From: Candidatus Gastranaerophilales bacterium
GTDB lineage: Bacteria > Cyanobacteriota > Vampirovibrionia > Gastranaerophilales > Gastranaerophilaceae
Direction: 5' to 3'
Length of the DNA stretch: 41,155 bases
Assembly: GCA_944323665.1 (NCBI GenBank)
Contig: CALUTN010000001.1
Coordinates: 1 to 41,155, forward strand
Positions 2,477 through 17,780 of this stretch are shown here, in pieces; position 1 is the stretch's first letter; the number at the start of each line of letters is the position of its first letter. A model generated the notes under the pieces. That model did not search any database. It saw only the letters and a program-made list of their open reading frames with translations, and was not told the origin of the DNA. The position numbers were made by a program, and so were the translations under genes.

Positions 2477-2573
2477 AACAATATTTTACTACAAGATAAA
2501 AAAAATACATACTCATATCGGGTAAAGCTCCGGGGGTTGATATAAGTTTATATTTTTATATAGGCTGAAACAC

Positions 2574-2601
2574 AAAAAAGCCGTCCGTTTTTTCGGACAG
2601 C
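2574..2601 (-). terminator. Rho-independent terminator of the 100-aa gene
   Basis: On the minus strand an 8-bp stem (GCTGTCCG / CGGACGGC, one G-T wobble) with a six-A loop is followed directly by six T. It lies 32 nt after the stop of the gene at 2633-2935. It separates that gene from the TPR-dus transcript. Confidence 0.8.
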
Positions 2602-2632
2602 AGATTTTTGTTTTGGTTTTGTGTGATGACTT

Positions 2633-2935
2633 TTAGTTATTAATTTCAGCGTCATCGGCGGTTTGAAGCTGTTTTGATTTGTAGTTGTGAATAACTGCAT
2701 CCACAAGTAAATCATATGAAGAACTTTTCTCGATATTCGGGAATTCCTCCTTCAATTGTTGTCTGACCATTGCTTCCAACCTCTGTTCGTCAGTTCTGAT
2801 TTTGAGTTCTGTACTCGACAGAGACTCTATATATTTTTCATTAGCTTCCCTTTGCCCGTTTGAAAATGTCAACAAATTAGCTTTAGGATCTAATGCCTGT
2901 TTCAATGATTTGATGAATGATTTAGGGTTAAACAT
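2633..2935 (-). CDS. Hypothetical 100-aa protein
   Basis: Not recognised. A charged, helical, soluble protein without signal peptide or membrane segment. The N-terminal third is basic (MFNPKSFIKSLKQALDPK). The middle is rich in Glu, Gln and Arg and is probably helical. The ATG at 2935 is supported by an AGAGG ribosome site 5 nt upstream, and a clear terminator follows, so this is a real single-gene unit. Upstream lies a 9-bp inverted repeat (2957-2993) that may be its operator. Confidence 0.7.
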   Translation of the reverse strand: MFNPKSFIKSLKQALDPKANLLTFSNGQREANEKYIESLSSTELKIRTDEQRLEAMVRQQLKEEFPNIEKSSSYDLLVDAVIHNYKSKQLQTADDAEINN

Positions 2936-2956
2936 AACGACCTCTTTTCACTTACC

Positions 2957-2993
2957 TTCACTTTGTACACTATTAAAGTATCCTCAAAGTGAA
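2957..2993. promoter_or_regulatory. Inverted repeat upstream of the 100-aa gene
   Basis: The arms TTCACTTTG (2957-2965) and CAAAGTGAA (2985-2993) are perfect 9-bp inverted copies separated by 19 bp. They lie 22-58 bp upstream of the ATG at 2935, between this gene and the 3' end of glyS. Arms about two and a half turns apart would suit a dimeric regulator or a weak hairpin. No good -35/-10 pair was found around it. Confidence 0.35.
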
Positions 2994-3027
2994 AATTTAC
3001 TCATTTTTGTCAAGTTGTTACAATTTT

Positions 3028-5019
3028 TTACAATTTTGAAAAATCTGTTAATATTATATACTTATTTTTCAAACCGTTCAATAGTGCCAGTCTGTTATTT
3101 TTAATCTTTTCATCATTGTCCATAACAAGAACGTCTTCAAAAAACTTTGTAACAACAGGATTAAGACTAATTAAGCTATTAAGATACTGTTTATAATCTC
3201 CGGTAAAATTAATCTTTTTGACCTCGTTATACAAATTCTTTTCAGCGTCGAATGTAAAGAGTGATTCATTGATTTCCGCAATTACTTCTTCTTTTAAGAT
3301 TCTTAAGACACGGTTTGCATTCTCAAGCAGAGCTGTATTATCCATATCGGACACTGCGTCAACTCTTTTTACATAATCACAAAGGTCCTTGCATGGATTA
3401 TTAGCTGCGCAAGCTTCAAGAACAGTCTTTTTGTAATCATTATTCAAGAAAATGATTAATCTCTGTACAAAGAATTCTTCCACATCCTTTTTACAATCAG
3501 ACTTGACAGGAAGAAGTTCCAGGCTTTCCGAAATCAATTTTGATAAATCTAATTTTAAATCATACTCAAGGATTGTCTTAATAATTCCGAGAGCCGCACG
3601 TCTTACACCAAGCGGGTCAGAAGAGCCGGTAGGCTTTCTGCCGGAAGCAAATACAGCACAAATTGTATCAATTTTATCAGCTATACCCACAACCTGTCCC
3701 TCAATTGATTTTGCGGTTTCACTGTCTGCATTGAGCGGAAAATAATGTTCTTTTATACCCTCTGCTGCTTCGGCAGATTCTCCGGAAACCCTTGCATAAT
3801 CCGCTCCGATAAATCCCTGAAGTTCAGTAAATTCAAAAACAAGGTTTGTAGCCAAATCCGCTTTACAAAGCTCAGCCGTTCTCTTGATAGAAGACTTATT
3901 TACACCGAGAGCGGAAGCAATCTTTTCAGAAAGTTTAATAATTCTTTGTGTTTTGTCATAAACAGAGCCCATACCCTTCTGGAAAGTCATGCCTTTTAGG
4001 TTTTCAACATAGCTTTCAAGCGGCTTTTTAGTATCTTCTTTAAAGAAAAATACAGCATCATCAAGACGGGCTTTGATTACTCTTAAGTTACCTGCCTTAA
4101 TATTTTCAAAATCATTTCCGATATAATTTGTTATAGTAACAAATTTGTTAATTAATTTGCCCTCTTTAGTATAAAGAGCAAAATATCTCTGATGAGTTTC
4201 CATAACAGTAACCGCAACTTCCTGCGGGATTGTCAGGAATTCTTCATCAAAACTGCAAGTTACAGCGACCGGATATTCACAGATAAATGTTACTTCTTCT
4301 AATAAGTCATCAGAGATTTTTGTTACTGCATTTAATTTATCCGCTTCAATTTTTGTAAGCTCCAAAATTCTTGCTTTTCTTTCATCCTGATTAACTATTA
4401 CATGAGCATCTTTCAGTTTGGAAACATATTCATCAGGATTATTAATAATAATATTTTGTTTTGAGAATCTGTGACCGTTTGTAAAGTTAGAAGATTCTTT
4501 ATCAATTATCTTTATCTTAACTTCTTCCCCGTCCAAGATAGAAAGCACCCATCTTATCGGACGTGAAAATTTAACATCATTAGAGCCCCATCTCATAAAA
4601 TGCGGACCTTGAAGTTTAGAAAATATTACCGGAACATTTTCTTGAAGCAAATCTTTTGTGTTTTTACCTTTAATAGAAATTTTTGCGTAAAGATAATTGT
4701 CTTCTACATACAAATCCTCGGGAGTAACTCCGTTTTTCTTTGCAAAACCTTCGCCGGCCTTTGTCAGGTTCTTATTCTCATCATAAGCAACTGTTGAAAT
4801 AGGACCTTTAACAACTTTCTCCACATCCGGCTGTGAAGCAGAAAGCCCGTCAACAATAACAGCTAACCTTCTTGGGGTTGCCATAACTTTTATATCTTTA
4901 TATTCAACTTTGTTTGTTTCTAAAAAGTTTTTAAAACCTTCTCTAAGCTGGGATATTGCCATTGGGATAAACTTGTACGGCAATTCTTCCACACCGACTT
5001 CCAACAAATATTTACTCAT
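3028..5019 (-). CDS. glyS: Glycyl-tRNA synthetase beta subunit
   Basis: Beta chain of the bacterial alpha2beta2 glycyl-tRNA synthetase, which recognises tRNA-Gly. It opens with the family signature LLEVGVEELP. It contains the conserved segments KGP near residue 75, MRWG and FSRPIRW near 145-160, and GSSDPLGVRRAALGI near 500. A DALR-type anticodon-binding region ends the protein. At 663 aa it is close to family length. I chose the ATG at 5019 (GGAG about 10 nt upstream). The frame stays open to 5100, but that extra 27-residue stretch lacks a ribosome site and is not conserved. The alpha subunit gene glyQ is not next to it, so the two subunits are encoded apart. Confidence 0.95.
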   Translation of the reverse strand: MSKYLLEVGVEELPYKFIPMAISQLREGFKNFLETNKVEYKDIKVMATPRRLAVIVDGLSASQPDVEKVVKGPISTVAYDENKNLTKAGEGFAKKNGVTPEDLYVEDNYLYAKISIKGKNTKDLLQENVPVIFSKLQGPHFMRWGSNDVKFSRPIRWVLSILDGEEVKIKIIDKESSNFTNGHRFSKQNIIINNPDEYVSKLKDAHVIVNQDERKARILELTKIEADKLNAVTKISDDLLEEVTFICEYPVAVTCSFDEEFLTIPQEVAVTVMETHQRYFALYTKEGKLINKFVTITNYIGNDFENIKAGNLRVIKARLDDAVFFFKEDTKKPLESYVENLKGMTFQKGMGSVYDKTQRIIKLSEKIASALGVNKSSIKRTAELCKADLATNLVFEFTELQGFIGADYARVSGESAEAAEGIKEHYFPLNADSETAKSIEGQVVGIADKIDTICAVFASGRKPTGSSDPLGVRRAALGIIKTILEYDLKLDLSKLISESLELLPVKSDCKKDVEEFFVQRLIIFLNNDYKKTVLEACAANNPCKDLCDYVKRVDAVSDMDNTALLENANRVLRILKEEVIAEINESLFTFDAEKNLYNEVKKINFTGDYKQYLNSLISLNPVVTKFFEDVLVMDNDEKIKNNRLALLNGLKNKYIILTDFSKL

Positions 5020-5262
5020 ATTTATATTTCTCCAATCTTTATCTTTGAAATAATTATACATCAAAAGTTTTGGGGGTAAATATATTAAATTATCCGGCAA
5101 AACTCTAATTTGGGAAGCCTTTAAGGGATAATCTAAAACTGTTTACAAGCTTCAAGCCGGAAAATAAAAAGTCGGAATAATACAGACTGAGACTTTAAAA
5201 ATACTCCATTTAGTTGTTATTTTTATGTTCTTTGTTCTGTAGAATAGAATCGGGAGAGATCT

Positions 5263-6033
5263 ATGCAAATAAATTCCAATACAGATAATAATCTGGCAAA
5301 AGTAGTAACTACGGTTACAGCACTTAAAAAGTCACGTTCTTATGAACTTTGTGTTAACGCGGATGCTCTCAGGTTTGCTAAATCTTATCAGGAATCCGTA
5401 AAAACATACCTTGAGTCTGTTATGATGGATAGATTTAATAAGGAAGCATATTTCGGGCTGGTTCTCTCATATAAATATTTGAAACAATATCAGAAGGCTA
5501 TAAGAAATCTTTCAAAACTTATAAAAATTGATAATCAAAATGATGAGTATTTCTACGAACTTGGGGTCTGTTATCTTTCCGACGGCAAACCGGAATGTGC
5601 CATTCCGCAATTTGTAAAGGCCATCGTTCTTAATAAAGAAAATCTTGAGGCTCAAATACAACTCGCTATAGCTCATGAACTTGTTGATGAAGCAGATTTG
5701 TCATTAATGATATACAACAAACTGATTGAAACAAATCCGGAGTTTTTAAAAGCTTATTATAATAAAGCGGCAATGCTAATGGGCATGGGCAATTTTCATG
5801 AAGCTTCCAAAACTTTTTTCCAAATTGTTAAAAGGAATCCTGATTATTATAAAGCTTATTTTGGCATTGCTTTGAGCTTTGATAAACTTGGACGATATTC
5901 GGATGCAATCAGGTATTATAAAAAGTTTTTGGAACTCAAAAAAAATTCACAGGATGCTGATTTCGCCCGAACAAGAGTGGTCGAACTCCGCAACAAGCGT
6001 GTGAAAGAAAAACGTCAATTAAAATTGGTTTAG
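5263..6033 (+). CDS. Cytoplasmic TPR-repeat protein, 256 aa
   Basis: A TPR protein of about six repeats (residues 33-235) with no signal peptide, so probably a cytoplasmic adaptor. Typical helices are seen at residues 60-75 (YFGLVLSYKYLKQYQKA) and 195-215 (AYFGIALSFDKLGRYSDA). The basic tail (NKRVKEKRQLKLV) is outside the repeats. The start is fixed by GGGAGAG 5 nt before the ATG. Its stop overlaps the stop of the convergent MCE gene by 4 bp, with no terminator between them. Binding partner unknown. Confidence 0.8.
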   Translation: MQINSNTDNNLAKVVTTVTALKKSRSYELCVNADALRFAKSYQESVKTYLESVMMDRFNKEAYFGLVLSYKYLKQYQKAIRNLSKLIKIDNQNDEYFYELGVCYLSDGKPECAIPQFVKAIVLNKENLEAQIQLAIAHELVDEADLSLMIYNKLIETNPEFLKAYYNKAAMLMGMGNFHEASKTFFQIVKRNPDYYKAYFGIALSFDKLGRYSDAIRYYKKFLELKKNSQDADFARTRVVELRNKRVKEKRQLKLV

Positions 6034-6887
6034 TTCTTCGTGCTTATGGTTTGCCCGAATATAAGCCTCAGCCCCCCAAACCTTTTCTTAAGAGTATTTC
6101 CTATACCAATAATGATTTCGTTTACGTTATTTATAACAATATTTATATTTTGAATAACGCAATTTATCATATTAACGCTTGTGTTGTTTATACTGCCTGT
6201 TATTCCCGTGATATTTTGTGTTGTTAGTACAAGGTTTGCACTTGTTTCTTCCAGATTGGCAAGTGTTGTTGATATATAGTCTCCTCGCACGGAATCTTTT
6301 ATATCATACGACATATCGGCAAGGTTTCTTGTAGTAATCGTTAAATTACCGGCAGATTCTCTGATAGATGGCTTAATATCGTTCATAATGGAGGTTAAAA
6401 CATTAAGCATTTCGGTAAGAGCATCAAAAGTTTGTCCGGCAGCGGCAATTGTTCCGTTCAAATTTTCTTTAATTTCATCCAATCCTCCGTTTTTTGCTTG
6501 ATCTTGTATATAGGTTTCAAAATTGATACCTTTTTGTCCTTCTATCAGTGAATTATTTTTTAAGTTCGCAAGATAGGGACTGTCCGGATAAAGAAGTTCT
6601 ATATAATCTTTTTTATCTTTTCGTCTTATCATAGCATATGTGTTTGCGGGAAGTTCAAGGTTTTGGAGCCGAATTTTTAAATCAACTCTGGTAGACTGAT
6701 AATCCGGACCGGGATAGACTCTGGAAGTGTGTCCGAGCCTGAAACCTTTATAAAATACCGGTAAGCTGCCTTTAAACGGTTCAAGTTCTTTAAAATCAAC
6801 CGTAACGCATATTTGACTCAAAAGATATATTATATAGAAAATAATAGCAATACTAATTATTACATATATTGATAATTCTTTTTTCAT
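6030..6887 (-). CDS. MCE/MlaD-family lipid-transport protein
   Basis: A membrane-anchored MCE-domain protein; the family shuttles lipids between membranes with an MlaE/MlaF-type ABC transporter. A single N-terminal membrane helix (residues about 5-24) precedes the MCE domain (about 28-115), which contains the family core GSLPVFYKGFRLGHTSRV and a beta-rich stretch. The C-terminal half is an Asn/Thr-rich helical region that could form the long needle or barrel of MCE assemblies. No mlaE or mlaF homologue lies nearby, so the transporter must be elsewhere. There is no obvious ribosome site before the ATG. It sits 63 nt downstream of two exported proteins in the same direction. Confidence 0.75.
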   Translation of the reverse strand: MKKELSIYVIISIAIIFYIIYLLSQICVTVDFKELEPFKGSLPVFYKGFRLGHTSRVYPGPDYQSTRVDLKIRLQNLELPANTYAMIRRKDKKDYIELLYPDSPYLANLKNNSLIEGQKGINFETYIQDQAKNGGLDEIKENLNGTIAAAGQTFDALTEMLNVLTSIMNDIKPSIRESAGNLTITTRNLADMSYDIKDSVRGDYISTTLANLEETSANLVLTTQNITGITGSINNTSVNMINCVIQNINIVINNVNEIIIGIGNTLKKRFGGLRLIFGQTISTKN

Positions 6888-6950
6888 AAAAGAATTATTA
6901 TTTTAATATGCTTAAGAAAACACCCCCGTTCGGAGATATCCTGCTTGGTA

Positions 6951-7520
6951 TTATTTCCAATTCGGATAATAATATACAGTGATAATATCGTTGGTTGAGA
7001 TTTTAGCATGCCCCCCTTTGATAAAGTTAGTAAGTGAGCCTGTCGGAGGGAGCGGCGTCAGCGCCCATTTAAGAGGCAGAACCCAGTATGTTCTGTTCCA
7101 GCCGGATTTTTGATAATTTGCATGAATTTTTGACGAAGGGAGATTTTGAAATTTAAAATCATTTAAATATATATAATAAGGAATTCCGTTCATACCGCTG
7201 TCAACAATAAGTTCTATTTTGGCAGAAACAGGTTCATTTCTTTTCACAATAATCTTCTCATTGTAATAGACATTACTTCTTGACTTAAGATTAACTGTTT
7301 GTCCTTCCTGTAACATTTCATCCCGGGTAGAGATATCTTGTGTTACCTGAAGCTTAATCGGAATTCTTTCAATATCGGTAAAATCGTAATCAGTATTGGT
7401 TTCCGGTTTTTCAAAAATTCTGCCGGACAAAAACTTATCGGTCAAAAAGTCATTTGTTAAAGCACAAGCCTGTAGCGGAAGAAATATTAATATAAATAGC
7501 GGAATTAAAATTCTATTCAT
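6951..7520 (-). CDS. Exported hypothetical protein, 189 aa
   Basis: Not recognised. A signal peptide (MNRILIPLFILIFLPLQACA) ends in A-C-A. The L-Q-A-C could be read as a lipobox, but Gln at -2 is atypical, so ordinary signal peptidase I cleavage is as likely. The mature part looks beta-rich, with a Gly/Pro-rich tail (PLPPTGSLTNFIKGG). The start overlaps the stop of the M48-like gene by 8 bp and uses a GGAG inside it, so the two are translationally coupled and probably work together in the envelope. Confidence 0.65.
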   Translation of the reverse strand: MNRILIPLFILIFLPLQACALTNDFLTDKFLSGRIFEKPETNTDYDFTDIERIPIKLQVTQDISTRDEMLQEGQTVNLKSRSNVYYNEKIIVKRNEPVSAKIELIVDSGMNGIPYYIYLNDFKFQNLPSSKIHANYQKSGWNRTYWVLPLKWALTPLPPTGSLTNFIKGGHAKISTNDIITVYYYPNWK

Positions 7521-8202
7521 AATTTATTTTCTCCACGGAACGACTGCGGATTTTTGACTCCAAAAGTTTTCTGTTCTCAATGGAATTTAACAGAAAATTC
7601 TGATAAGCAGGATTCTCAAGGTATGTATTGTTAGCCAGAAAATACGGATATTTAGTAAAAATATATTCATAAATATTTGCCAGCCGTTTTGATGTTAAAT
7701 TATGGTTTGAAAATCTGTCAAATCGTTTCTGCGGACATGATTTATTAATAAAAGTAATAAGTCCGAGCGGGTTATATCCTGCCTTTACCATAAAATCAAC
7801 CGCTCTTTTATCCGCAACAAGTTCATATTTTTTCGGAGCCATTTTAACCTGAGCTGCACTTACCGTTCCACCCCAGGCTCCATCATAAGATTTTAAAGCA
7901 TCAGAAATTTTTCTCGCAAGTAATGCCGCCGCCTCATCTTCATATTCCGCATATTTTATATCTTCGTCATAAACAATTATCTGTCTTTTAGTGAGCTCGG
8001 GAGCGCCTTTAAAACTTTTATCTTCCTTTGAATACGTAAAAACTATACGTTTATCAATTTTATTAGAGTTTAACAAATGCATACCGATATTGCTTATCTG
8101 GTTTTGTATAGTAATTTCTTTAGCCAGGTGCTCTTCTGTTACCGCATAAACAGATGCCGGCAGAGAAAATATAATTAATAATATAAAAATCTTCTTCAAC
8201 AT
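7513..8202 (-). CDS. M48-like peptidase homologue with lost HExxH motif
   Basis: An exported protein (signal peptide 1-20, ending VYA) that follows the M48 metallopeptidase pattern. In the usual EDExAAVLAHExxH region it reads YEDEAAALLARKISDAL, so the two zinc His and the catalytic Glu are Arg97, Lys98 and Asp101. The downstream E-x-x-x-D element survives (YELVADKRAVDFMVKAGY, Glu127 and Asp131), as does the LTSKRLANIYEYI segment matching the M48 'HPxTxxR' region. It is therefore probably a non-catalytic relative with a binding or chaperone role. The start has GGAG 7 nt upstream, and an extended -10 promoter lies at 8219-8227. Confidence 0.65.
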   Translation of the reverse strand: MLKKIFILLIIFSLPASVYAVTEEHLAKEITIQNQISNIGMHLLNSNKIDKRIVFTYSKEDKSFKGAPELTKRQIIVYDEDIKYAEYEDEAAALLARKISDALKSYDGAWGGTVSAAQVKMAPKKYELVADKRAVDFMVKAGYNPLGLITFINKSCPQKRFDRFSNHNLTSKRLANIYEYIFTKYPYFLANNTYLENPAYQNFLLNSIENRKLLESKIRSRSVEKINYE

Positions 8203-8218
8203 AACAGCTCCATAATTT

Positions 8219-8227
8219 ATTATACCA
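8219..8227 (-). promoter_or_regulatory. Extended -10 promoter of the envelope cluster
   Basis: On the minus strand TGGTATAAT, a TGn-TATAAT extended -10 with consensus hexamer, sits 17 nt upstream of the ATG at 8202. No clear -35 is seen. It would drive the M48-like, exported and MCE genes. Confidence 0.5.
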
Positions 8228-8251
8228 AAAATTTGTTTAAGGGAAACACCA

Positions 8252-8821
8252 TCAGCCTATTTTTGCGAGAACTTGTTCTATATGAGGTATATCTTGATGG
8301 ATTGTACCGAATAACTCTTTAATAAAATTTAAAATATTTTCTCGGGAGGGAATTTCAGATTTATAAGCAATGTAATATAAGTCCATAGCCAAATCTCCCT
8401 CACGATTCGGATAATAGTAATCAATATTAATTTTTTCAGCCCCATGCCTTTGATAAAAAGATATTCTCCTATAGGTATTATTGTCAACAGGATTAGGTTT
8501 TTCGACTTCCAAAAAGCATCCGGCTTTATCAGGATACATTTTTTTAAGACTGTTAAGGATTTCCCCTCCGAAACCTTTTCCATGATACATTCCGGCCACA
8601 GCAAGGTAGTCCAGAAGCAGATATTTGTCTGATTTAAAGATTATTGCATATCCTGCCGGAATATTATCATTATGAGCAAGAATTATATCATAATTTCCGG
8701 ATTTAATGAGATTCAGATACGCTTGATAATCTTTTAATTCTGATTGCGGGAATTGTTTCAGCATATCCTGATATACTGATTTAAACTCTTCTGTTGAGGT
8801 TCTTTTAAATTGTAATACCAT
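8252..8821 (-). CDS. GNAT-family N-acetyltransferase
   Basis: An acetyl-CoA-dependent acetyltransferase of unknown substrate, 189 aa. The GNAT motif A is LLDYLAVAGMYHGKGFGG (residues about 70-87), where the HGKGFGG loop holds the CoA pyrophosphate. Motif B follows as FYQRHGAEKI near residue 122. A helical C-terminal tail of about 45 residues lies outside the fold. The ribosome site is weak (AAAGAT). It lies upstream of the M48-like operon in the same direction but is separated from it by that operon's own promoter. Confidence 0.8.
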   Translation of the reverse strand: MVLQFKRTSTEEFKSVYQDMLKQFPQSELKDYQAYLNLIKSGNYDIILAHNDNIPAGYAIIFKSDKYLLLDYLAVAGMYHGKGFGGEILNSLKKMYPDKAGCFLEVEKPNPVDNNTYRRISFYQRHGAEKINIDYYYPNREGDLAMDLYYIAYKSEIPSRENILNFIKELFGTIHQDIPHIEQVLAKIG

Positions 8822-8915
8822 ATCTTTTAAATAACAAAAATAAATAATTTTGGCAATCTTTAATTACGAATAATAAATAGTTAACCCGGAAATGTGACAA
8901 TTAATTTCTAAGCTT

Positions 8916-10445
8916 TTAGTTCAGAATTTTTTTTACTGATTCCAATTCTTCGGGAGAAAGTCTGAATGCATGAATCATCAATTTTTCTTTAAGGGCAGAC
9001 TCGGAAGCTTTCAGATTTCCGAAAATACTTTTTATCGCAAAAAGTAAATCTTCATTTTGTACAAAATCAAGCTTATATATAAGTCTGTCATGAAGCGCAT
9101 AGTTATCAATTTTTGCCAGCCGCTCGTAATATGGTCGAAATTGTTTATGCGGCAGAAGATGAAGAAAACTCGCCAGATGTTCAATTGAGTCCGGATGGGC
9201 ATATTTTTCAGCTATATTATACAGTTCCAGAATCTTTTCCGGAACAATATCTGTTCCGCTAAATTTTAAATCATCTTTTATAACAATATTTTTATTATCC
9301 ATTGCAAGCAGAGGTATTTCATTAAATAAAATAACCTGTGTAACAGTATCATCTGTTTGTACAAGTTTCTCAAAATATTTCAGAGAATCTTCATAAGGAA
9401 GATATTTAAGTACGTAAGACAGGCTTCTGTTTACGAGAGGGTCATTTAATTCAAGGCATTTATTGATATAAAAATTTTTATTTGGCATGTGTTTTATGGA
9501 CATCGCAAGTCCGGCATTTTTCTGACTTTTATCCATATGCTTACTATGAAATAATCTTGCCCATTCCATCTCCCGGTATTTATCTTCCGTGTCTCTGATT
9601 TTGCTTTGAACAGCTCTTGCGGTTTTACTGTTATTTTTAATCCGGTTAATTATTCTGACACCACCCCAGTCATAGCTGTACATTTTACAAACATTATGTT
9701 TGGTTACAATATCTTCATCCGTGCATTTTAGTCCGTAGGTATAGGGTGACACAATTCTCCGGGGATTTCTGACATCTTCATCAATGTACTTTACAATCAT
9801 ATACCCTTGCTTAAGGTTTCCCCAGAAAAATTTTCCTCTTTGGGTGTCAAAGCCAACATTGTTCATCCAGTAAACCGCGCTGTTTTGTTCAGCATAATTC
9901 CCGTGGCTTTTATACGGCTGCCAATCCTTACCTTCTATCATATGATAGTTTTTCATTACAAGTTCATCTTCATCAATATCATGGCCCCTCAAGCCTATAA
10001 TACGATACCCTGCTCCTTTTCCCCCTTTGTCTATATATTCAATATCAACATCATCTAAAATTCCGGCTAATTTGTATTTTCTGATGAGCGTCTCCAGTAG
10101 TTCTTTATTGTAATTATATCGTCTTTTGCGAATTTCTTCCAATTTAACGGCTTTTGATTCGTCAAAATTTCTTAACTCTTCGGATATTCGGTCAAAAACC
10201 GAGTAAAAATCCCTTATTGCAGCTTCCCTGTTCTCTTTGGGAAGCTTTTCAAAAATGAAAGATGGCAGTCTTCCCGCAATCTGGCTCTTTCCTGCCCTTT
10301 TTTCAATAATGGCTTTGATATCTTTTTGACCGTCTATATGCATTATTTTTTTTAATTGCTTGGTCATTCCGCAGAAAGCAGGTCTTGTAAAATTATGATA
10401 TTCTTGAGCCTGGAAATTATTTGTTGTGATATTGTTAATTTTCAT
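8916..10445 (-). CDS. Kinase-like protein with helical C-terminal half and FCG leader
   Basis: No family is recognised with certainty. The N-terminus is a leader of the type shared by other proteins here (MKINNITTNNF..., then PAFCGM at 22-27). Residues 130-265 resemble a protein/aminoglycoside-kinase fold: a Gly-rich loop (DKGGKGAGYRI, 139-149), a VMK lysine (Lys165), a helix Glu (Glu186), a hinge-like YMIVKYIDED and a DFG-like YDWGG (258-262). A clear HRD loop is missing; Asp243, Asp245 and Asn251 are the only candidates. Residues 300-509 are repeated helical pairs, HEAT-like. The ATG at 10445 is preferred over the upstream TTG at 10463. It could be a pseudokinase or something unrelated. Confidence 0.5.
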   Translation of the reverse strand: MKINNITTNNFQAQEYHNFTRPAFCGMTKQLKKIMHIDGQKDIKAIIEKRAGKSQIAGRLPSFIFEKLPKENREAAIRDFYSVFDRISEELRNFDESKAVKLEEIRKRRYNYNKELLETLIRKYKLAGILDDVDIEYIDKGGKGAGYRIIGLRGHDIDEDELVMKNYHMIEGKDWQPYKSHGNYAEQNSAVYWMNNVGFDTQRGKFFWGNLKQGYMIVKYIDEDVRNPRRIVSPYTYGLKCTDEDIVTKHNVCKMYSYDWGGVRIINRIKNNSKTARAVQSKIRDTEDKYREMEWARLFHSKHMDKSQKNAGLAMSIKHMPNKNFYINKCLELNDPLVNRSLSYVLKYLPYEDSLKYFEKLVQTDDTVTQVILFNEIPLLAMDNKNIVIKDDLKFSGTDIVPEKILELYNIAEKYAHPDSIEHLASFLHLLPHKQFRPYYERLAKIDNYALHDRLIYKLDFVQNEDLLFAIKSIFGNLKASESALKEKLMIHAFRLSPEELESVKKILN

Positions 10446-10508
10446 ATCAGTATTAAACCTCAAAATAAAAAATTTTGCTGGTAAAATTTTTATTTTTGAG
10501 TTTAATTA

Positions 10509-10514
10509 TATAAT
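10509..10514 (+). promoter_or_regulatory. -10 element of pgi
   Basis: A consensus TATAAT lies 25 nt upstream of the pgi ATG, with no convincing -35. A strong AGGAGGG ribosome site follows at 10530-10536. Confidence 0.4.
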
Positions 10515-10539
10515 GTACATTGAAGATTCAGGAGGGAGT

Positions 10540-11862
10540 ATGTTAAATAGTACAGTACACAACAGCGAAATATCCACAAGTTACTTTAACACTGACTTTG
10601 CTAAGGCAGAAAAAGTTATTAAAGAAGTTATTTTCTCTTTTAAAGAAAGAGCAAATAAACCAGGGCAGTTTTTGAACTGGGTTGGACTTCCGGAAGTCCA
10701 ACTGGCAAGGATTGATGAAATATATGATTTGGCTGAAAATTTTAAGCAACAAACAAATGCACAATATTTAAGCGTATTTGGTATAGGAGGTTCAAAACAC
10801 ACTGTTGAACACATGCTCGGAATTAGCGGATTAAATATTAACAAAGATAAAATTCTTTTCTTTTCAGATGTTGATTCGGTTAGTTTAAACAGATATCTTT
10901 ACAAATTGGATAATGATATAACCAAATCCAATTTCTTGATTGCTTCAAAGTCAGGTTCGACGTTCGAAACAAAAGATGGCTTTTTAAAAGTTAAACACTT
11001 ATTAACTGAAGCATATAAAAACAAGGGTTACGGAGAAAAAGAGGCGGAAGACGCAACATCAAAGCATTTTATTGCCGTAACGGATAAGAACCCTGCCGGA
11101 AGCGAGCTTAGGAGAATATCAGATTCTGAAAACTGGTTGGGCAAATTATATATCCATGATGATGTTGGCGGCAGATTTTCCGCTCTTGATGATCATAGTT
11201 TATTTACCCTTGCTTATGCCGGCATGGACAAAAACGATATGAAGCAGATGCTTGAATCAGCCAAAAATATCTCTGAAACAGCTCTGATTCCGGATATAAA
11301 AATTAATGATTCTTACGCCCAAGCGGCTTTTTGGGTTCTTGCAAGATTAGACGGAATCAAAACTTCCGTGCATCAATATATGGGCTCTATGTTTGAAGAT
11401 ACTGTAAACTGGCATTCACAGATGCAAAATGAGTCAGTAAAAGATACTTTGAAGCAGATAGCCAAAGTTCCGGATGCGATGCATCACAGTGCAGAAGCGC
11501 ATTTTAATCCGGCAAATAAATATGCTTTTGCGTTAACATCTCCTGTTGATAAGGGCGTCTCAAGAGAAAATGCCCGGGGATATATCGGCGCTTTAGCAAA
11601 ATCCTATTCAAATGCCGGCCCGTTCTTTAATGAGTCTGTTCAAACGGCAAAGCTCGGCTTAACCCCGGCTGCAGCGGGTGCTATGACTCAGTCCAGGGCT
11701 TTTTCTACCGTATATCAAGAAATGATAGAAAAAGCAATTACCGGAACTCCGCTTCCGTCAGTACTTGACAGTGTTTTACAGCCGCATGTGGAAGTCTATA
11801 AGAAAAATCTTAAACCGCAGGCCGGTGAACCGGATGTAGTTACGGCCGGCAAGTTTTCTTAA
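10540..11862 (+). CDS. pgi: Glucose-6-phosphate isomerase (divergent, short)
   Basis: Interconverts glucose 6-phosphate and fructose 6-phosphate in glycolysis, and here feeds both glmS and glycogen metabolism. The SIS fold signatures are FGIGGSKHTVEHMLG (first sugar-phosphate loop), ASKSGSTFET (phosphate-binding Ser/Thr) and VGGRFSALDD. The C-terminus has LQPHVEVYKKN, matching the family's QPGVExxK with the catalytic Lys. The central part, between the GGRFS box and that Lys, is poorly conserved. The length of 440 aa suits the short bacterial type. The start is set by AGGAGGG 3 nt before the ATG; the longer frame from 10426 has no ribosome site. A terminator follows at 11885. Confidence 0.85.
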   Translation: MLNSTVHNSEISTSYFNTDFAKAEKVIKEVIFSFKERANKPGQFLNWVGLPEVQLARIDEIYDLAENFKQQTNAQYLSVFGIGGSKHTVEHMLGISGLNINKDKILFFSDVDSVSLNRYLYKLDNDITKSNFLIASKSGSTFETKDGFLKVKHLLTEAYKNKGYGEKEAEDATSKHFIAVTDKNPAGSELRRISDSENWLGKLYIHDDVGGRFSALDDHSLFTLAYAGMDKNDMKQMLESAKNISETALIPDIKINDSYAQAAFWVLARLDGIKTSVHQYMGSMFEDTVNWHSQMQNESVKDTLKQIAKVPDAMHHSAEAHFNPANKYAFALTSPVDKGVSRENARGYIGALAKSYSNAGPFFNESVQTAKLGLTPAAAGAMTQSRAFSTVYQEMIEKAITGTPLPSVLDSVLQPHVEVYKKNLKPQAGEPDVVTAGKFS

Positions 11863-11884
11863 ATCTTAGTATTAAAAATTTCTA

Positions 11885-11924
11885 CCGGCGAAAGAGATTA
11901 AAATCACTTTCGCCAGTATTTTTT
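11885..11924 (+). terminator. Rho-independent terminator of pgi
   Basis: A stem GGCGAAAG (11887-11894) / CTTTCGCC (11907-11914), extendable by four more pairs with one mismatch, is followed by A-T6. It lies 22 nt after the pgi stop. Confidence 0.85.
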
Positions 11925-11968
11925 CAGATTTAATGCAAGAAATAGTTTTACGGGTTTTATTTATAAGT

Positions 11969-12712
11969 ATGAAAATCTCTCCTATAATGTCAAATAGCTA
12001 TAATAATGTATCTTTTTCCAGTTGTGCCAGGATTGTTAAAAATAAATCCGGCAGTATTATATATAGAAATACGACAACTTTTTTCCGAAATGATTTGGAT
12101 TGGAACAGTTTATGCATGTATATAAAAGATAAATATAAAAATGCAAATAAAGTTAATCTTGTTTGTTATGCCTGTTCGGATGGTTCAGAGCCAATGTCGC
12201 TTGCAATGCTAATTAAAGAGAATTTCGGCAATGATTTTCAAAAATTTTTCCCTATTGTAGCTAAAGATGTGGATGATGTTATAATTCGCAGAGCCAAAAG
12301 CTGCTTTGTTAATATGGATATTGAAGATATTCGTACTATAAATAATTACACAAATAATAATATAAGAAATTATTTTAAATTTCCCCGCAAGGCACTCGGT
12401 ATAGAATTTATACCTGCTTTAATAAATCCCTGGTTTAAAAAAGGAATAAATTATTCAGTTGCAGATATTAAAAAGGACTGCTCTAATATACCGTCAGATA
12501 ATACTCTGCTTTTCTTTCGTAATGTTTGGCCCTACCTTGCAGATGATTCCGAAAGAATGAAACTTATAAAAAAAATTAAGTCCCAATTTAGTAAAAATTG
12601 TGCGATTGTTATAGGAAATTTTGATAATAAAAATATATCAACACATAATCTTCTGCTGGATGCCGGTTTAAAAGAATCCGGATTATTAAAAAATGTATAT
12701 GAACTTGGATAA
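11969..12712 (+). CDS. CheR-type SAM-dependent methyltransferase domain protein
   Basis: Related to the catalytic domain of CheR, the glutamate methyltransferase of chemotaxis receptors. It shows the CheR entry TTFFRND..W (residues about 36-46). The SAM-binding motif I is CYACSDGSEPMSLAM, against SAGCSTGEEPYSLAM in CheR. It also has the FFRNVWPYLAD element, equivalent to CRNVLIYF. The CheR N-terminal helical domain is missing. Instead there is a leader (MKISPIMSNSYNNVSFSS). No chemotaxis gene is nearby, so the substrate is unknown. The start at 11969 is chosen for the leader; 11933 is an in-frame alternative, and neither has a ribosome site. Confidence 0.65.
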   Translation: MKISPIMSNSYNNVSFSSCARIVKNKSGSIIYRNTTTFFRNDLDWNSLCMYIKDKYKNANKVNLVCYACSDGSEPMSLAMLIKENFGNDFQKFFPIVAKDVDDVIIRRAKSCFVNMDIEDIRTINNYTNNNIRNYFKFPRKALGIEFIPALINPWFKKGINYSVADIKKDCSNIPSDNTLLFFRNVWPYLADDSERMKLIKKIKSQFSKNCAIVIGNFDNKNISTHNLLLDAGLKESGLLKNVYELG

Positions 12713-12723
12713 ATTAACAAAAT

Positions 12724-14586
12724 TTATTCTAACGGCAGGGGATTTATACTTATATACATTTTATCAGATTCTTTATCTCCTCTTTTAACGGTTCTGTAAA
12801 ATATATTTTTTTTAATCCAGGGTATAAGTTTGTCATATATTTCACCTGTCATTTTGAGGAACAAATCCGTGTCAATATCAAGAGTAGAATTATTAATTAT
12901 GTAATCTCTTGATAGCAGTTCTCTTAGTTCGGATTCGTTTTTATCAAATTTTTGGCAGTATTCTTTGAACAATTGTTCATTTAAATATTTACGCTTACGG
13001 ATTCTTTTTTGGATGACTTGTATTGGTTCTTCCGGGAAAAGTGTTTTTCCTTGCTTAAAACTGTTATATACAGCATGAGCTATTTCTGCACTCCGGGGAA
13101 GAGAAATAATTCTAAAATCCGCTTTCACATTAGAGTTCGGGTTATCAATTTTTAACGCCATAGCTGTTTGTCTCTGAGGACGCGAAACCGCCTGGAAACC
13201 TACAGCAGTCAGATTATTTTCACGGGCAAGCAGCGCAAAATTTGATATATATAAGGTCGGGTTATATTTTTCAAAATTGTCCACCGGATAATAACTTCCG
13301 TCAATACAGTATGTGTACGCAAAGAATAGTGCCGTGAGAATATCTTTTGTTACATCCAGATAGTCTGTTGCAAATTCGTAATGCTGAGCAATTGCATCAA
13401 GGTCAAATTCAAAATAATAATCCATAATCTTCATTCCGGACAGAATTTGGTAATAAGGGGTAAGTTTAAAATAATTTTTAAACTCTTCCCTTTTAATATA
13501 TTCTGCACAATGTTTTGCAGGATTTTCAATCAGTTCTTTTCTCTGAAAGCTGGGAATAAATTTTTCATAATCATTATTTTGACCTCTGAAAATACAAGGT
13601 TCAAATTCCCCGCCTAAAAGAATTTTAGCTTTATTATTCTCCGATTTAATAAAAAAACCCGTTTTTGTACTATCAGTATTCAATCTAAACGGCAGCATAA
13701 AATGCAAACCTTTTGTTGCGAGAATTGAAAGCCTTCCCATTTGTTGGTAATCCTGCATTGTTATAAGCTCAAATCCGTTAATGGACGGAACCAGTTTACA
13801 AATGTCTTTTTTATGACATTTTTTTATCTTATAGCATATTTTTAATACATTTTTCAGCCGGTGTATAAAACTCTCTTTCTTTATATCAGGTTTAATAAAT
13901 GCTTTTTTCCATTCTTTACTTTGTAATGTCGTATTAATTTCTTTCTCTGCATATTCAATATATCCCGTTATATTATCAACTTCATAATAAGACACAAGAG
14001 AATGCCTCTTGCCTAAATATTTTGAATAATTAAGGGTGTGTTTTATTAATTGTGCAAGAATAAAAATCCCCATATTTATTGAAAGAATAATATCAGAAAA
14101 AGTTTTTTCCGAATGCAGTCTTGCTATTGTCAGAGCATTTTCTTTTGAAATATTACCGGCAAGAAGACTGGCTATTTCATCATTATATGCTCTTGCCGTG
14201 CACAATGCCGATTCAAGTGCCATTATGTACCTGAATATACACTCGACAATCATGTAATCTTTTTTGATTGTAAATGCATAGTCCGCAATATTAATTTTAA
14301 AATTCAGCTTTGGCGGATTAAAAAAGCAAAAAGCTTTCTGCCTGTTTTCATCCGTCGGATTTTCCAAAAAATCATTTTTATATGCCTGCATATTCAATGC
14401 CAGTTGTTTTAAATTTGTAAAGAAACGAAATTGGTCGTCCGCAGCGCTTAATAAATAATTTAAAAGATCCCGTTCTTTTTCTAATATTCTCTCTTGTTCA
14501 AAGAAATTCCGAATCAGATAATTAATATATATTAAACCGGATATAAGTATTAATCCTAAAAATAAATAGAAAAGATATTCTAACAT
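12724..14586 (-). CDS. Membrane-anchored FRG-domain protein, 620 aa
   Basis: An N-terminal membrane helix (residues about 3-25) is followed by about 300 residues of helical, coiled-coil-prone sequence, then an FRG domain from about residue 328. The FRG domain is recognised by CIFRGQNNDYEKFIPSFQR and, about 45 residues later, AIAQHYEFATDYLDVTKD followed by LTALFFAY. This matches the FRG pattern of F-R-G-Q, P-S-x-x-R, Q-H-x-x-x-T-x-x-L-D and A-L-x-F-A. The biochemical role of FRG domains is not settled; many occur in mobile or defence contexts. The second ATG (14586) sits 4 nt from AGGGAG and is preferred over 14589. It has its own promoter. Convergent with the CheR-like gene, 11 bp apart. Confidence 0.7.
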   Translation of the reverse strand: MLEYLFYLFLGLILISGLIYINYLIRNFFEQERILEKERDLLNYLLSAADDQFRFFTNLKQLALNMQAYKNDFLENPTDENRQKAFCFFNPPKLNFKINIADYAFTIKKDYMIVECIFRYIMALESALCTARAYNDEIASLLAGNISKENALTIARLHSEKTFSDIILSINMGIFILAQLIKHTLNYSKYLGKRHSLVSYYEVDNITGYIEYAEKEINTTLQSKEWKKAFIKPDIKKESFIHRLKNVLKICYKIKKCHKKDICKLVPSINGFELITMQDYQQMGRLSILATKGLHFMLPFRLNTDSTKTGFFIKSENNKAKILLGGEFEPCIFRGQNNDYEKFIPSFQRKELIENPAKHCAEYIKREEFKNYFKLTPYYQILSGMKIMDYYFEFDLDAIAQHYEFATDYLDVTKDILTALFFAYTYCIDGSYYPVDNFEKYNPTLYISNFALLARENNLTAVGFQAVSRPQRQTAMALKIDNPNSNVKADFRIISLPRSAEIAHAVYNSFKQGKTLFPEEPIQVIQKRIRKRKYLNEQLFKEYCQKFDKNESELRELLSRDYIINNSTLDIDTDLFLKMTGEIYDKLIPWIKKNIFYRTVKRGDKESDKMYISINPLPLE

Positions 14587-14623
14587 CATTCTCCCTAAAA
14601 TAAAATTTATATTGTTACGGATA

Positions 14624-14632
14624 ATTATATCA
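14624..14632 (-). promoter_or_regulatory. Extended -10 promoter of the FRG gene
   Basis: TGATATAAT on the minus strand (TGn plus consensus TATAAT) lies 38-46 nt before the ATG at 14586, just downstream of the pepA terminator. No -35 is visible. Confidence 0.5.
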
Positions 14633-14680
14633 AAATATGATTTACTTTTGGTTTGTGTAAAAAATGTTACATTATATTTA

Positions 14681-14717
14681 AAAACGGGGAGCAGATTAAA
14701 ACCTGTTCCCCGTTTTT
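14681..14717 (-). terminator. Terminator of pepA (symmetrical)
   Basis: A 12-bp stem AACGGGGAGCAG / CTGTTCCCCGTT with one G-T pair and an 8-nt loop has A-runs and T-runs on both flanks, so it can work in both directions. It is positioned 16 nt past the pepA stop. Confidence 0.85.
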
Positions 14718-14732
14718 ATTTAACGGTTTGAC

Positions 14733-16133
14733 TTACTGTTCCAAAATATAGTTTAAAATTGTTCTTACACCTGCACCGGTGGCACCTTTGATAAACTCTT
14801 TCTGCGGTTTTTCTAAAAATGCGGTTCCTGCTATATCAATATGTGCCCATTTTACATCTTTAACAAACTTTTGGAGGAAACATCCTGCAGTAGAAGCCCC
14901 ACCCCAGCGAGAGCCGGTATTTTTCATATCAGCTATATCGCTCTTAAGGCTTTCAAAATAGTCATCCCACAAAGGAAGCTTCCAATACCTTTCGCCGCTT
15001 CTTTGAGCTGTATCAATGAGTTTTGAAACAAACTCATCATCATTACCCATAATACCGGCTGCAGCAGTACCGAGAGCCACCATGCAGGCACCTGTCAGAG
15101 TTGCAAGGTCAACAACTTCATCAACACCGAGTTCGCATGCGTAGCACAAAGCATCTGCAAGAGTTAGTCTGCCTTCTGCGTCAGTATTATCTATTTCAAT
15201 CGTCTTGCCGTTTTTAGCGGTTAAAATATCACCCGGCTTATATGCGCTGCAGCCCGGCATGTTTTCGCAGGCTGCAATTATTCCGTGGACTTCCACCTGA
15301 GGGTTAAATTCTTTTATAACACTCATTACACCAAGTACACATGCTGCTGCTGACATATCGTCTTTCATTGTAAGCATGGATGAAGGAGGTTTAATATCCA
15401 ATCCGCCGCTATCAAAAGTTATACCTTTTCCGATAATTGCAATTCTCTTTTTCGGGTTGTCAACAGAGTATTTCATGTGAATAAATTTTGGCTCTTGAGC
15501 GCTTCCTTTTGCTACTGCTAAAAATGCACCCATTCCCATATGTTCACATTCTTCTCTGTCATAGATTTTTGTTTCAAGCCCCAAATCACAGGCAATCGCT
15601 GCAAGTTCAGATGGTGTTGCAAATTGAGCCGGTTCGTTTGCAAGATTTCTTGCAAAACTCATTGCTGCTGCAATCTTTTCGGCTTTTCTTACCATAGCTT
15701 CGTTTGCCTGAACATAGACTTCTTTAACCTTTTTGTCTTTCTTTTCACTCTTATATTTATCAAAAGAATAATCAGCGATTAAAGCTCCCATTGTGAATTG
15801 TTCCGAGTAATCAAATTCAATTCCGTCAAGAGAAAAAGCAACGGTTTTAGCTTCTATCTGCATTGCTTTTTTTATAGCCTTTGCAGAAGCTTCTCTCATT
15901 TTGTTTGGATTGAATTCTTCTTTTTTGCCAAGTCCCAAAACAAGAACTTTTCTGTAAACTTCCTGGCCGTATGTCGGCAAAAGATATGTTTCGCCGAATT
16001 TTCCTTCAAATTTATCTTCGTCAACCGCGTATTTATTAGCAAGTTCGCAAGAAGTTTTTTCGCCTTCAAACATACTCACTACAAGCAAGTCACAGTTGAT
16101 TGATTTGCTGTTTTCAACAACTTTAATTTCCAT
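14733..16133 (-). CDS. pepA: Leucyl aminopeptidase (M17)
   Basis: A cytosolic di-metal aminopeptidase that removes N-terminal residues from peptides; the family forms hexamers. The C-terminal catalytic domain carries the metal and active-site motifs GKGITFDSGGLDIKP (Lys and Asp), KDDMSAA and the M17 signature NTDAEGRLTLADAL. The N-terminal macro-like domain (1-150) is more divergent. At 466 aa it is close to the usual size. The ATG at 16133 follows AGGAG at 7 nt. Promoter and imperfect palindrome lie at 16151-16187, and a terminator closes the unit, so it is monocistronic. Confidence 0.96.
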   Translation of the reverse strand: MEIKVVENSKSINCDLLVVSMFEGEKTSCELANKYAVDEDKFEGKFGETYLLPTYGQEVYRKVLVLGLGKKEEFNPNKMREASAKAIKKAMQIEAKTVAFSLDGIEFDYSEQFTMGALIADYSFDKYKSEKKDKKVKEVYVQANEAMVRKAEKIAAAMSFARNLANEPAQFATPSELAAIACDLGLETKIYDREECEHMGMGAFLAVAKGSAQEPKFIHMKYSVDNPKKRIAIIGKGITFDSGGLDIKPPSSMLTMKDDMSAAACVLGVMSVIKEFNPQVEVHGIIAACENMPGCSAYKPGDILTAKNGKTIEIDNTDAEGRLTLADALCYACELGVDEVVDLATLTGACMVALGTAAAGIMGNDDEFVSKLIDTAQRSGERYWKLPLWDDYFESLKSDIADMKNTGSRWGGASTAGCFLQKFVKDVKWAHIDIAGTAFLEKPQKEFIKGATGAGVRTILNYILEQ

Positions 16134-16158
16134 ACTAAAACTCCTTTCTTCTTCAAGT

Positions 16159-16187
16159 ATTGTATACTATTTGAAGCTATTTTTAAA
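16159..16187 (-). promoter_or_regulatory. pepA promoter inside an imperfect palindrome
   Basis: On the minus strand TTTAAA (16187-16182), 17 nt, TACAAT (16164-16159). The -10 lies within a 26-bp imperfect palindrome (16151-16176) with CTTCAA / TTGAAG ends, a possible operator for pepA. Confidence 0.45.
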
Positions 16188-16281
16188 TACGTTAATCGGA
16201 TTAGTAATCATTCACAAAGTCTGTTTGAAAAACTGTTAAAATTCCGGGACAGAAGTACTTGTATTTAAACTTATACAAAAT

Positions 16282-16315
16282 AAAAAGGACAATAACTAAA
16301 GTTATTGTCCTTTTT
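16282..16315 (-). terminator. Terminator of tRNA-Val
   Basis: A perfect 15-bp inverted repeat (AAAAAGGACAATAAC / GTTATTGTCCTTTTT, 4-nt loop) begins 2 nt after the encoded CCA of the tRNA. The stem ends in a T-run on the minus strand. Confidence 0.9.
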
Positions 16316-16316
16316 A

Positions 16317-16392
16317 TGGTGGGCGTTGAGGGACTTGAACCCCCGACCCTCTCCTTGTAAGGGAGACGCTCTACCAACTGAGCTAAACGCCC
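16317..16392 (-). tRNA. tRNA-Val(UAC), CCA encoded
   Basis: The minus strand gives acceptor stem GGGCGTT / AACGCCC, a D-arm with AGCTCAGTTGGTAGAGC and an anticodon arm TCTCC-CTTACAA-GGAGA with anticodon TAC (valine). The T-arm contains GGTTCAAGTCC and the CCA end (16317-16319) is encoded. The mature part is 73 nt plus CCA. It has its own terminator. Its first 18 nt and upstream flank are repeated at 16508-16549. Confidence 0.97.
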
Positions 16393-16416
16393 GCACACCA
16401 TATTTAATTTTCACTT
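16375..16416. repeat. 42-bp direct repeat, copy A (tRNA 5' end plus promoter side)
   Basis: Identical to 16508-16549. It includes the first 18 nt of tRNA-Val (16375-16392) and 24 bp of upstream flank. The tRNA is intact at this copy. Confidence 0.9.
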
Positions 16417-16699
16417 TGTTCAGTTGGTAGAGCGTTAATTTCTTTATTCGCTCGGCTCTGCCTTTCTGAACTCTTTACGGATTATCTAACCTCGTCGCCT
16501 CGCTGGGCAACTGAGCTAAACGCCCGCACACCATATTTAATTTTCACTTCGCTAGTTGCATTTGAGGCTATAACATAAATCAGAGATTCATTTACCCCCG
16601 TCCGTACACCTTGCGGCAAGACTTATATTAACCTAAACAAATTTTATTGTCAAATCTTTGATTAAAAAACTACATGAATCAAAACCCAAGACGCTGTTT
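16393..16699. other. Gene-free stretch with rearranged tRNA fragments
   Basis: No protein gene is visible in these 307 bp. It holds a plus-oriented tRNA D-arm fragment (CAGTTGGTAGAGCG, 16421-16434). This is the exact inverse of 16367-16380 in the tRNA. It also holds the second 42-bp repeat copy and a locally GC-rich segment (about 16450-16510) unlike the rest of the window. Beyond 16560 the sequence is AT-rich and featureless up to the prfB stop. Confidence 0.7.
16508..16549. repeat. 42-bp direct repeat, copy B (truncated tRNA 5' end)
   Basis: Perfect copy of 16375-16416, 133 bp away. Here the tRNA stops after 18 nt (at GGGCGTTTAGCTCAGTTG) and continues into unrelated sequence, so this copy is a remnant, not a tRNA gene. 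Confidence 0.9.
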
Positions 16700-17780
16700 T
16701 TAAGCATTTCTCTTCCCGCCTGTTTTTAAATACTCTTCAATAAACCCGTCAAGGTTCCCGTCCATGACTGAATCTACATTCCCGACTTCATAACCTGTCC
16801 TGTGGTCTTTAACCATTTTATATGGATGAAAAACATAAGAGCGGATTTGAGAACCAAAATTAATATCAACGTTTTCGCCTTTTAGTTCAGCTAATTTTTT
16901 TTCATGCTCTCTTTGTCTGATTTCAAGGAGTTTGGAAGCCAGCATCTGCATGGCATTTTCTTTGTTTTGAAGCTGCGACCTTTCCTGCTGGCATTTAACC
17001 ACAATCCCTGTAGGCTTGTGCAGAATTCTTACTGCCGTTTCTACCTTATTAACATTCTGCCCGCCGGCGCCTCCTGAGCGCATTGTATCAATTTCTAAAT
17101 CCTCGGGCGGAATTGTTATTGTTTTTTCATAATCCGGAATAATCGGAGAAACCTCGCAGGAAGCAAAACTTGTCTGGCGTTTGCCGTTAGCATTGAAAGG
17201 AGAAATTCTTACAAGCCTATGCACGCCTTTTTCTGCCTTAGCATAACCGTACGCATATTTTCCGGTAATCTTGATTGTTGCAGACTTAATCCCCGCTTCT
17301 TCTCCGTCAGAACGGTCAATAAGTTCAACTTTCCATCCTCTTGATTCTGCCCAGCGGGTATACATTCTAAGAAGCATTTCCGCCCAGTCCTGAGCATCAG
17401 TTCCGCCCGCTCCGGCATTAATCGTTAAAAAAGCGTCTGCTTCGTCGTATTCTCCTGATAGCATTTTTTGGATATCGTATCTATCGAGTTCCTTTTCAAG
17501 TTCGCTAAGAGAAGGCTCTGTTTCTTTAATAAGCTCTTCATCCCCAATTTCGTAAGCAATCCGGGCATCGTCAATTATAGAATCCCATTTTTTAACCTGC
17601 TCTAAAGTGTCCTTTATTTCTCTTGATTTCTGTCCCAATTCTGTTGCAAGCTTCTGGTCAGTCCAAACTTCAGGACTCTGTAGTTTGGTTTCAAGTTCTT
17701 TTAATTCTTTCTCCAGACCGGCAAGGTCAAAGACACTCCTTATTTTTATTTACTCTTTGCTTCAGTTCTTCTAAATTCAT
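16700..17780 (-). CDS. prfB: Peptide chain release factor 2, programmed +1 frameshift
   Basis: Recognises UGA and UAA and releases the finished chain. The first frame runs from the ATG at 17780 for 17 codons ([17 protein letters not shown]) to an in-frame TGA at 17727-17729. After a +1 slip translation continues as [13 protein letters not shown]... to 16700, about 359 aa in total. The release-factor anticodon-like SPF (RISPFNANG) and the catalytic GGQ ([11 protein letters not shown]) are both present. Length and domain order are normal for RF2. The ATG overlaps the tmk stop as ATGA, so it is translated after tmk on the same message. Confidence 0.96.
17726..17740 (-). promoter_or_regulatory. 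prfB autoregulatory frameshift site
   Basis: On the minus strand AGGAG (17740-17736), 3 nt, CTT TGA C. This is the canonical RF2 arrangement: an internal Shine-Dalgarno 3 nt before a CUU codon, followed by the UGA stop that RF2 itself reads. Low RF2 favours the +1 slip to UUU-GAC and restores RF2 synthesis. Confidence 0.95.

Follow-up and report, generated by a model that had tools for sequence, protein, structure and literature searches.

A divergent protein-kinase-like family of Gastranaerophilales whose kinase-like module probably ends near its DFG-like motif and is joined in one clade to a predicted HEAT-like solenoid

In protein kinases, a Gly-rich loop, a Lys, a Glu, an Asp, an Asn and the Asp of the DFG motif jointly bind ATP/Mg and catalyze phosphate transfer. 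Kinase-fold proteins of the SelO type transfer AMP, and HEAT-like solenoids, which usually bind proteins, follow a kinase domain in VPS15 and ULK4. The same order is described in the accessible part of PMC7195191 for SCYL1, in which an N-terminal kinase-like domain lacking residues critical to activity is followed by HEAT repeats. Kinases can also be trimmed: in the accessible text of PMC13395416, SteC is an effector kinase with a depleted C-lobe that keeps and needs helix F and the activation segment, and OspG is also named among the minimal effector kinases. SidJ is presented as a kinase-fold polyglutamylase in the available portion of PMC6858067, and FTA2 (PF13095) is assigned to the Pfam PKinase clan in that of PMC9758233. 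The kinase fold, the kinase-then-HEAT order and reduced C-lobes are already known, but in the literature covered, which mostly excludes subscription journals, we found no description of the bacterial family reported here, of its stop at DFG or of its spread in Gastranaerophilales.

The window analyzed here is a stretch of 41,155 nucleotides of contig CALUTN010000001.1, from a Candidatus Gastranaerophilales bacterium. The open reading frame proposed in the initial annotation is correct, with its ATG at 10445 and a TAA ending at 8916 (Table 1), and a TTG located 18 bases upstream of the ATG is a possible alternative start. That annotation had described the product as a possible divergent kinase or pseudokinase followed by helical repeats and knew of no family with such an order, which SCYL1 shows to be too strong a statement (accessible part of PMC7195191). 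Compared by description, SCYL1 and the window protein have the same domain order, but the catalytic residues lost in SCYL1 are kept here.

Table 1. Features of the kinase-like gene, with positions in the window and the basis for each; counts are of domain rows with a letter in the column.
Feature	Position	Strand	Basis or remark
Whole gene	8916..10445	-	509 aa; stop 8916-8918; same start in A1 homologues
Disordered N-terminal tail, residues 1-23	10377..10445	-	pLDDT < 50
F-x-G motif closing the tail, residues 24-26	10368..10376	-	F in 85/91, G in 81/91
Helical module, residues 28-123, with G-x-LP motif (P61)	10077..10364	-	predicted helices; P61 in 107/107
Protein-kinase-like module, residues 130-266	9648..10058	-	AlphaFold2, Foldseek, VIA, hhalign
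Gly-rich loop, residues 139-147	10005..10031	-	G141 invariant in A1; in register with kinase Gly loops
ATP-binding Lys K165 (V-M-K)	9951..9953	-	Lys in 106/107
Helix-C Glu E186, inside family motif H-G-x-x-x-E	9888..9890	-	Glu in 108/108
Strand 5 and hinge, residues 214-222	9780..9806	-	sequence and model
Degenerate catalytic loop, residues 238-251 (C-T-D243, N251)	9693..9734	-	conservation; hhalign on HRD/Asn
DFG-like D-W-G-G, residues 259-262	9660..9671	-	D259 in 91/91, G261 in 90/90
HEAT-like alpha-solenoid, residues 270-509	8919..9638	-	model, structure searches, tandem profile matches in relatives

The kinase motifs recognized in the initial annotation do follow one another along the protein (D139-KGGKGAG-Y147, V163-M-K165, E186, G214YMIVKYID and D259WGG). 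In an alignment of the window protein with 27 homologues that are 20-61% identical to it (A1), nine columns are invariant in all 28 sequences, and six of these are the kinase positions G141, K165, E186, N251, D259 and G261, the other three being P61, G238 and G312. With six of nine invariant columns at kinase positions, the order of the motifs is more than chance. We then counted residues in a wide set of 122 unique domain rows, setting aside the 14-33 gap rows in each column. The strand-3 Lys, the helix-C Glu and the DFG-like Asp and Gly are kept as listed in Table 1, G141 is found in 104/108 rows and N251 is Asn in 77/89. The catalytic loop, which the initial annotation could not clearly discern, does exist in degenerate form, as C-T-D243 ... 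N251 and then D259-W-G. Its Asp is present in 18/18 members of the closest clade (A3), in 23/28 sequences of A1 and in 67/94 rows of the wide set. Among the 27 rows with another residue is a branch of four loci (L026, L027, L029 and L031) that retains the Lys, Glu, Asn and DxG Asp and has no clear HRD-like Asp; judging by these residues, its members are possibly inactive or altered.

Compared with Ser/Thr kinases of PF00069, the window protein has the Gly loop, Lys, helix-C Glu, catalytic Asp/Asn and DFG-like motif in the same order, but it has no Pfam match, no activation segment with APE and no recognizable C-lobe past DFG, and the stretch from hinge to catalytic loop is short, with one short helix at 234-237. 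The sequence following D259WGG is VRIINRIKNNSKTARAVQSKIRDTED, in which no [A/S]PE was found.

For the window protein no usable match came from Pfam, NCBIfam, PHROGs or PADLOC, and neither Pfam Pkinase nor APH (PF01636) matched it at E <= 1. Where tested, the family reached no Pfam or NCBIfam cut-off, and this widespread bacterial family is without a name in the family databases searched. We built a profile of the kinase part (A2) from the window and 87 of 88 extracted stretches, leaving out L079. Pkinase (PF00069) was absent among the 25 families listed for A2. A direct hhalign comparison was made with 23 cyanobacterial Pkinase domains, which were kept from 30 loci for their length, freedom from stops and canonical H-x-D-x4-N pattern. 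The alignment spans 124 columns with a score of 43.9 (probability 83.9, P 7.7e-6), and in it D243, N251 and D259 line up with the HRD Asp, the catalytic Asn and the Asp of DFG, respectively. As controls, 100 column shuffles scored at most 18.7, and the scores were 12.8 for the reversed profile, 13.2 for the HEAT part and 12.5 for the N-terminal part. Against 28 APH domains (PF01636; chosen by length from 30 loci) the score was 21.3 with a probability of 2.2, while Pkinase against APH gave 76.3 in the same set-up. The window clade alone (31 rows) scored 36.6 against Pkinase (probability 57.6) in an alignment ending short of the catalytic loop, and the equation of D243 with HRD therefore rests on the whole family. 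Locus numbers were used to divide A2 into the clade (31) and the remaining rows (57), which placed one clade member, L020, in the second group.

Searches of PDB sequences with the family profiles returned kinases in 57/60 and 11/14 of the rows listed; these matches are individually weak (E 0.006 to 10), with the Gly loop and Lys in register. At E 6.8e-4, A2 also reaches L168, a genuine Pkinase protein that Pkinase itself matches at E 1.5e-46. Fragments of LRP6 and ORC6, found by phmmer with the window protein against PDB sequences at E 0.03 or worse, were judged to be chance matches. FTA2 weakly matches 15/88 family members, with the Gly loop on profile positions 28-59 and the catalytic loop and DFG on 164-211 of 214, so the FTA2 model likewise ends soon after its DFG-like position. 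All FTA2 matches seen fall under the curated cut-off of 30.2 bits, however (24 bits for L106), and the window protein is unmatched.

The whole protein was modeled by AlphaFold2 with a mean pLDDT of 88.7 and a pTM of 0.85. Because Foldseek and VIA searches with this model gave solenoid matches and no kinase among the rows listed, the kinase part was modeled separately (residues 108-322 with 88 sequences; pLDDT 91.1, pTM 0.85). This model has strands at 134-140, 144-153, 161-167, 206-210 and 215-219, helix C at 183-196, a catalytic region whose one short helix is that at 234-237, and helices from 268 onward. All 50 PDB rows listed by Foldseek are kinase-fold proteins by name, counting 6fai_l, a chain of a pre-40S structure that we take to be one. 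Methylthioribose kinase (E 6.7e-4), Bud32, APH(2''), choline kinase and RIO2 rank highest; only one row reaches E 0.001, and query TM-scores are low, at 0.22-0.41 across the 50 rows listed. With VIA-align, 49/50 rows listed are kinase-fold by name, the exception being 7cyr (MSMEG_1954), and the top row among them is CDKL1 (Z 10.2, rmsd 3.6, 118 aligned). The initial annotation had named a kinase match over residues 130-265 as what would support its reading, and VIA alignments do reach model residue ~159, which is protein residue 266. Most stop at model residues 156-165 (protein residues 263-272), an end point that excludes no C-lobe helices F to I. The expectation of a bilobal kinase-like fold holds for the kinase N-lobe and catalytic core, both of which are predicted, but the evidence does not point to a strictly bilobal kinase, as nothing kinase-like was matched after DFG.

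A BFVD search gave nothing at E <= 0.001. Minimal kinases of the HopBF1 and OspG/NleH types were absent among the structural rows listed, an absence that excludes nothing. Bud32/PRPK, RIO, ABC1 and ArkI, which rank high in the structural lists, are compact atypical kinases like the window module, but they have their own C-lobe helices and no HEAT solenoid. Compared by description, SteC-type kinases share a reduced C-lobe and an HRD-like motif without Arg, whereas SteC retains helix F and the activation segment (accessible text of PMC13395416) and nothing kinase-like was found after DFG in the window protein.

How far the chain extends past this point is best seen in 17 short paralogues, defined as those whose A1 match ends by profile position 257. 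A D-x(4-7)-N ... D-x-G core (e.g., FFHCDLHDENVLITKDKNGKLILKLIDLG in L014) is present in 17/17 with a widened motif pattern, the narrower first pattern having caught 6/17. These proteins, of 280-358 aa as annotated in this analysis, terminate 5-26 residues after DxG in every case and within 5-10 residues in 14/17, and the usual C-lobe after DFG is therefore missing. By hhalign, the short branch matches Pkinase with a probability of 97.1 (P 7.6e-11) and the window clade with a probability of 99.3 (P 1.5e-20) over the N-terminal module and N-lobe, the alignment past the hinge being without meaning. It is this branch that decides the question of kinship with kinases. ABC1, Pkinase, RIO1 or APH, which we take to be kinase-clan Pfam families, matched 4/10 scanned members at E <= 0.1, all below cut-off; the best Pfam match of L014 is ABC1 (E 8.2e-4, below cut-off). 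In genome G027 a short paralogue (L014 538-1377, also L134 7092-7931) lies directly upstream of a full-length member of the HEAT clade. The short paralogues pose the question of how little C-lobe a kinase needs, which they share with minimal effector kinases, and they are small enough for expression and assay.

The C-terminal half is HEAT-like, as first annotated; in the AlphaFold2 model it forms an alpha-solenoid whose 15 helical elements span residues 274-508. VIA-align places it near AP-3 (Z 12.8, rmsd 4.6, 217 aligned) and the PP2A A subunit (Z 12.7, rmsd 4.3, 222 aligned), a likeness that may reflect only a common helical-repeat arrangement. Sequence support for HEAT is weak, with HEAT_2 matching 2/28 members of A1 (best E 0.017). 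The solenoid varies in length because longer relatives carry more copies of profile section 310-395, which matches them repeatedly in tandem; in L063 the 317-395 region recurs four more times. At the other end, the helical N-terminal module precedes the Gly loop in every family part examined, and it may occupy the place of the C-lobe.

Taken together, the window protein is probably a divergent protein-kinase-like member with an intact ATP/Mg site, its kinase module phosphorylating a partner gripped by the solenoid. ATP and Mg would be bound by the Gly loop, a K165-E186 salt bridge, and N251 and D259 as metal ligands, with D243 as the catalytic base. The C-lobe after DFG (activation segment and helices F to I) would be absent, its place in the chain, and perhaps also in space, being taken by the helical module at the N-terminus together with, in this clade, the HEAT-like solenoid. 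The solenoid, possibly with the N-terminal module, would grip a protein partner against the cleft, and the kinase module would phosphorylate a Ser/Thr residue, in this partner or in itself, with the gamma-phosphate of ATP. Because the catalytic residues of kinases are kept, we consider activity more probable than its absence, and because HEAT-like solenoids in addition usually bind proteins, a kinase modifying a solenoid-held partner is the best supported reading. The gene neighbors, mobile-element collections and N-terminal tail gave no pointer to that partner.

The fold could instead carry out other ATP-dependent chemistry on a solenoid-held partner, either AMP transfer as in SelO-like proteins or an acyl-adenylate reaction as in SidJ-like ones. 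Kinase-fold proteins without an ordinary C-lobe or activation segment are capable of such reactions, and further helices stand directly after DxG in the model, but we consider this unlikely given that the conventional residues (Gly loop, Lys, Glu, HRD-like Asp, Asn and Asp) are present in normal order. A second alternative is a pseudokinase or ATP-binding scaffold, in which the module would bind nucleotide or no ligand at all, with the solenoid serving as an adaptor in the manner of SCYL1. The shared domain order with a protein whose kinase domain lacks activity-critical residues (accessible part of PMC7195191), the weak HRD-like motif and the branch without a D243-type Asp are all compatible with it. 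A long-inactive family would not be expected, however, to keep N251, D259, K165 and E186 invariant in A1 and D243 in 18/18 of the clade, so we judge this quite unlikely and retain from the initial annotation the divergent kinase fold, not the pseudokinase. A small-molecule kinase of the APH, choline kinase or methylthioribose kinase type, though enzymes of this type stand near the top of the Foldseek and VIA lists, is highly improbable given the low APH profile score set against that for Pkinase, the lack of a counterpart to the C-terminal substrate-binding half of APH and a solenoid that suggests a macromolecular partner.

A single-sequence search found matches in 40/191 genomes of the same taxonomic family, profile A1 in 152/382 genomes of the class and profile A2 in 121/386 genomes of the phylum, including 11 from outside the class. 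One of these 11 (G496) reflects the ordinary Pkinase protein L168 matched across families, while the other ten have proteins of 287-360 aa with the H-G-x-x-x-E motif; Pfam named none of the six that were scanned, except for FTA2 (E 0.035) in one. Near-full-length relatives (E <= 2e-183) were listed at 36 places, all within the taxonomic family of the window. The closest named relatives are from Candidatus Gastranaerophilales genomes (72% identity, L176). In the genome of the window (a 1.74-Mb assembly in 183 contigs) the protein search finds only the protein itself, and A2 gives one match. The distribution is patchy: 6/35 genomes of the window's genus have a near-full-length relative, and in a seventh (G162) the reading frame of a gene closely related to that of the window is interrupted (L021), which suggests loss in a sister species. 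The window protein and L057 are 89% identical over the kinase part, 67% over the solenoid and 62% over residues 1-120. Their dN/dS of 0.09 is only rough, owing to saturation at synonymous sites (dS at least 2.4, or undefined).

At E <= 1e-20, Pkinase was absent from 21/21 genomes of the window's family and found in 38/38 from other families of the phylum. Because ordinary Hanks-type kinases were not found in the sampled genomes of its family, the protein may be part of a replacement kinome there. A more speculative and less likely possibility is a kinome specific to non-photosynthetic Cyanobacteriota that consists of DFG-ending kinases, in which the N-terminal G-x-LP module, at the opposite end of the chain, would stand in for the C-lobe and variable HEAT-like solenoids or long multidomain proteins would supply the target; in gut Gastranaerophilales it would replace Hanks kinases, and exported effectors may be among its members. 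If the kinase reading is true, the family found in 152/382 sampled class genomes represents unannotated kinases of a common gut lineage, for which searches of 21/21 sampled family genomes revealed no ordinary Ser/Thr kinase.

A conserved operon was considered and rejected, since no cluster other than that of the gene is shared by more than 4/21 loci (20 further loci and window positions 1-20000). Nearby in the window, the 621-residue product of 12724-14589 contains an FRG domain (45.7 bits, cut-off 25). The family had no match in plasmid or phage collections that would point to a mobile-element origin, and of 55 stretches of viral contigs that fit the pattern none was confirmed by closer alignment. 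One family fragment (L106 3461-3859) matches PHROG 4301, of unknown function (E 5.9e-5), so a related phage family may exist.

From unrelated window proteins we had suspected by eye that the F-x-G tail is a general sorting tag of the lineage, but a loose pattern test did not support this, with the tail pattern in 57/495 non-family ORFs versus 76/495 in a control stretch (residues 62-120) and in 13/176 versus 27/176 for photosynthetic cyanobacterial loci. One protein with such a tail, encoded at 11933-12712, has a CheR-type methyltransferase domain (79.9 bits), and its N-terminal tail MKISPI...VSF resembles by eye that of the kinase protein. Another (28673-31351; 892 residues) looks by eye like a glycosyltransferase of the glycogen-synthase-like kind; its C-terminal segment is hydrophobic and its tail reads ISFKG.

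Several family members have unusual arrangements. In genome G016, four paralogues stand in a row on one strand (L087 3053-7427), each with DxG, as a tandem expansion. A 1695-residue protein (L100 3721-8805) has its kinase-like domain at 1069-1304 and, at 1424-1604, a RelA/SpoT region that scores 27.6 bits against a cut-off of 27. In three proteins of 529-824 residues (L099 2031-4100, and the neighbors L102 2789-4375 and 4433-6904), the kinase-like domain lies at the extreme C-terminus, a layout that resembles modular effectors.
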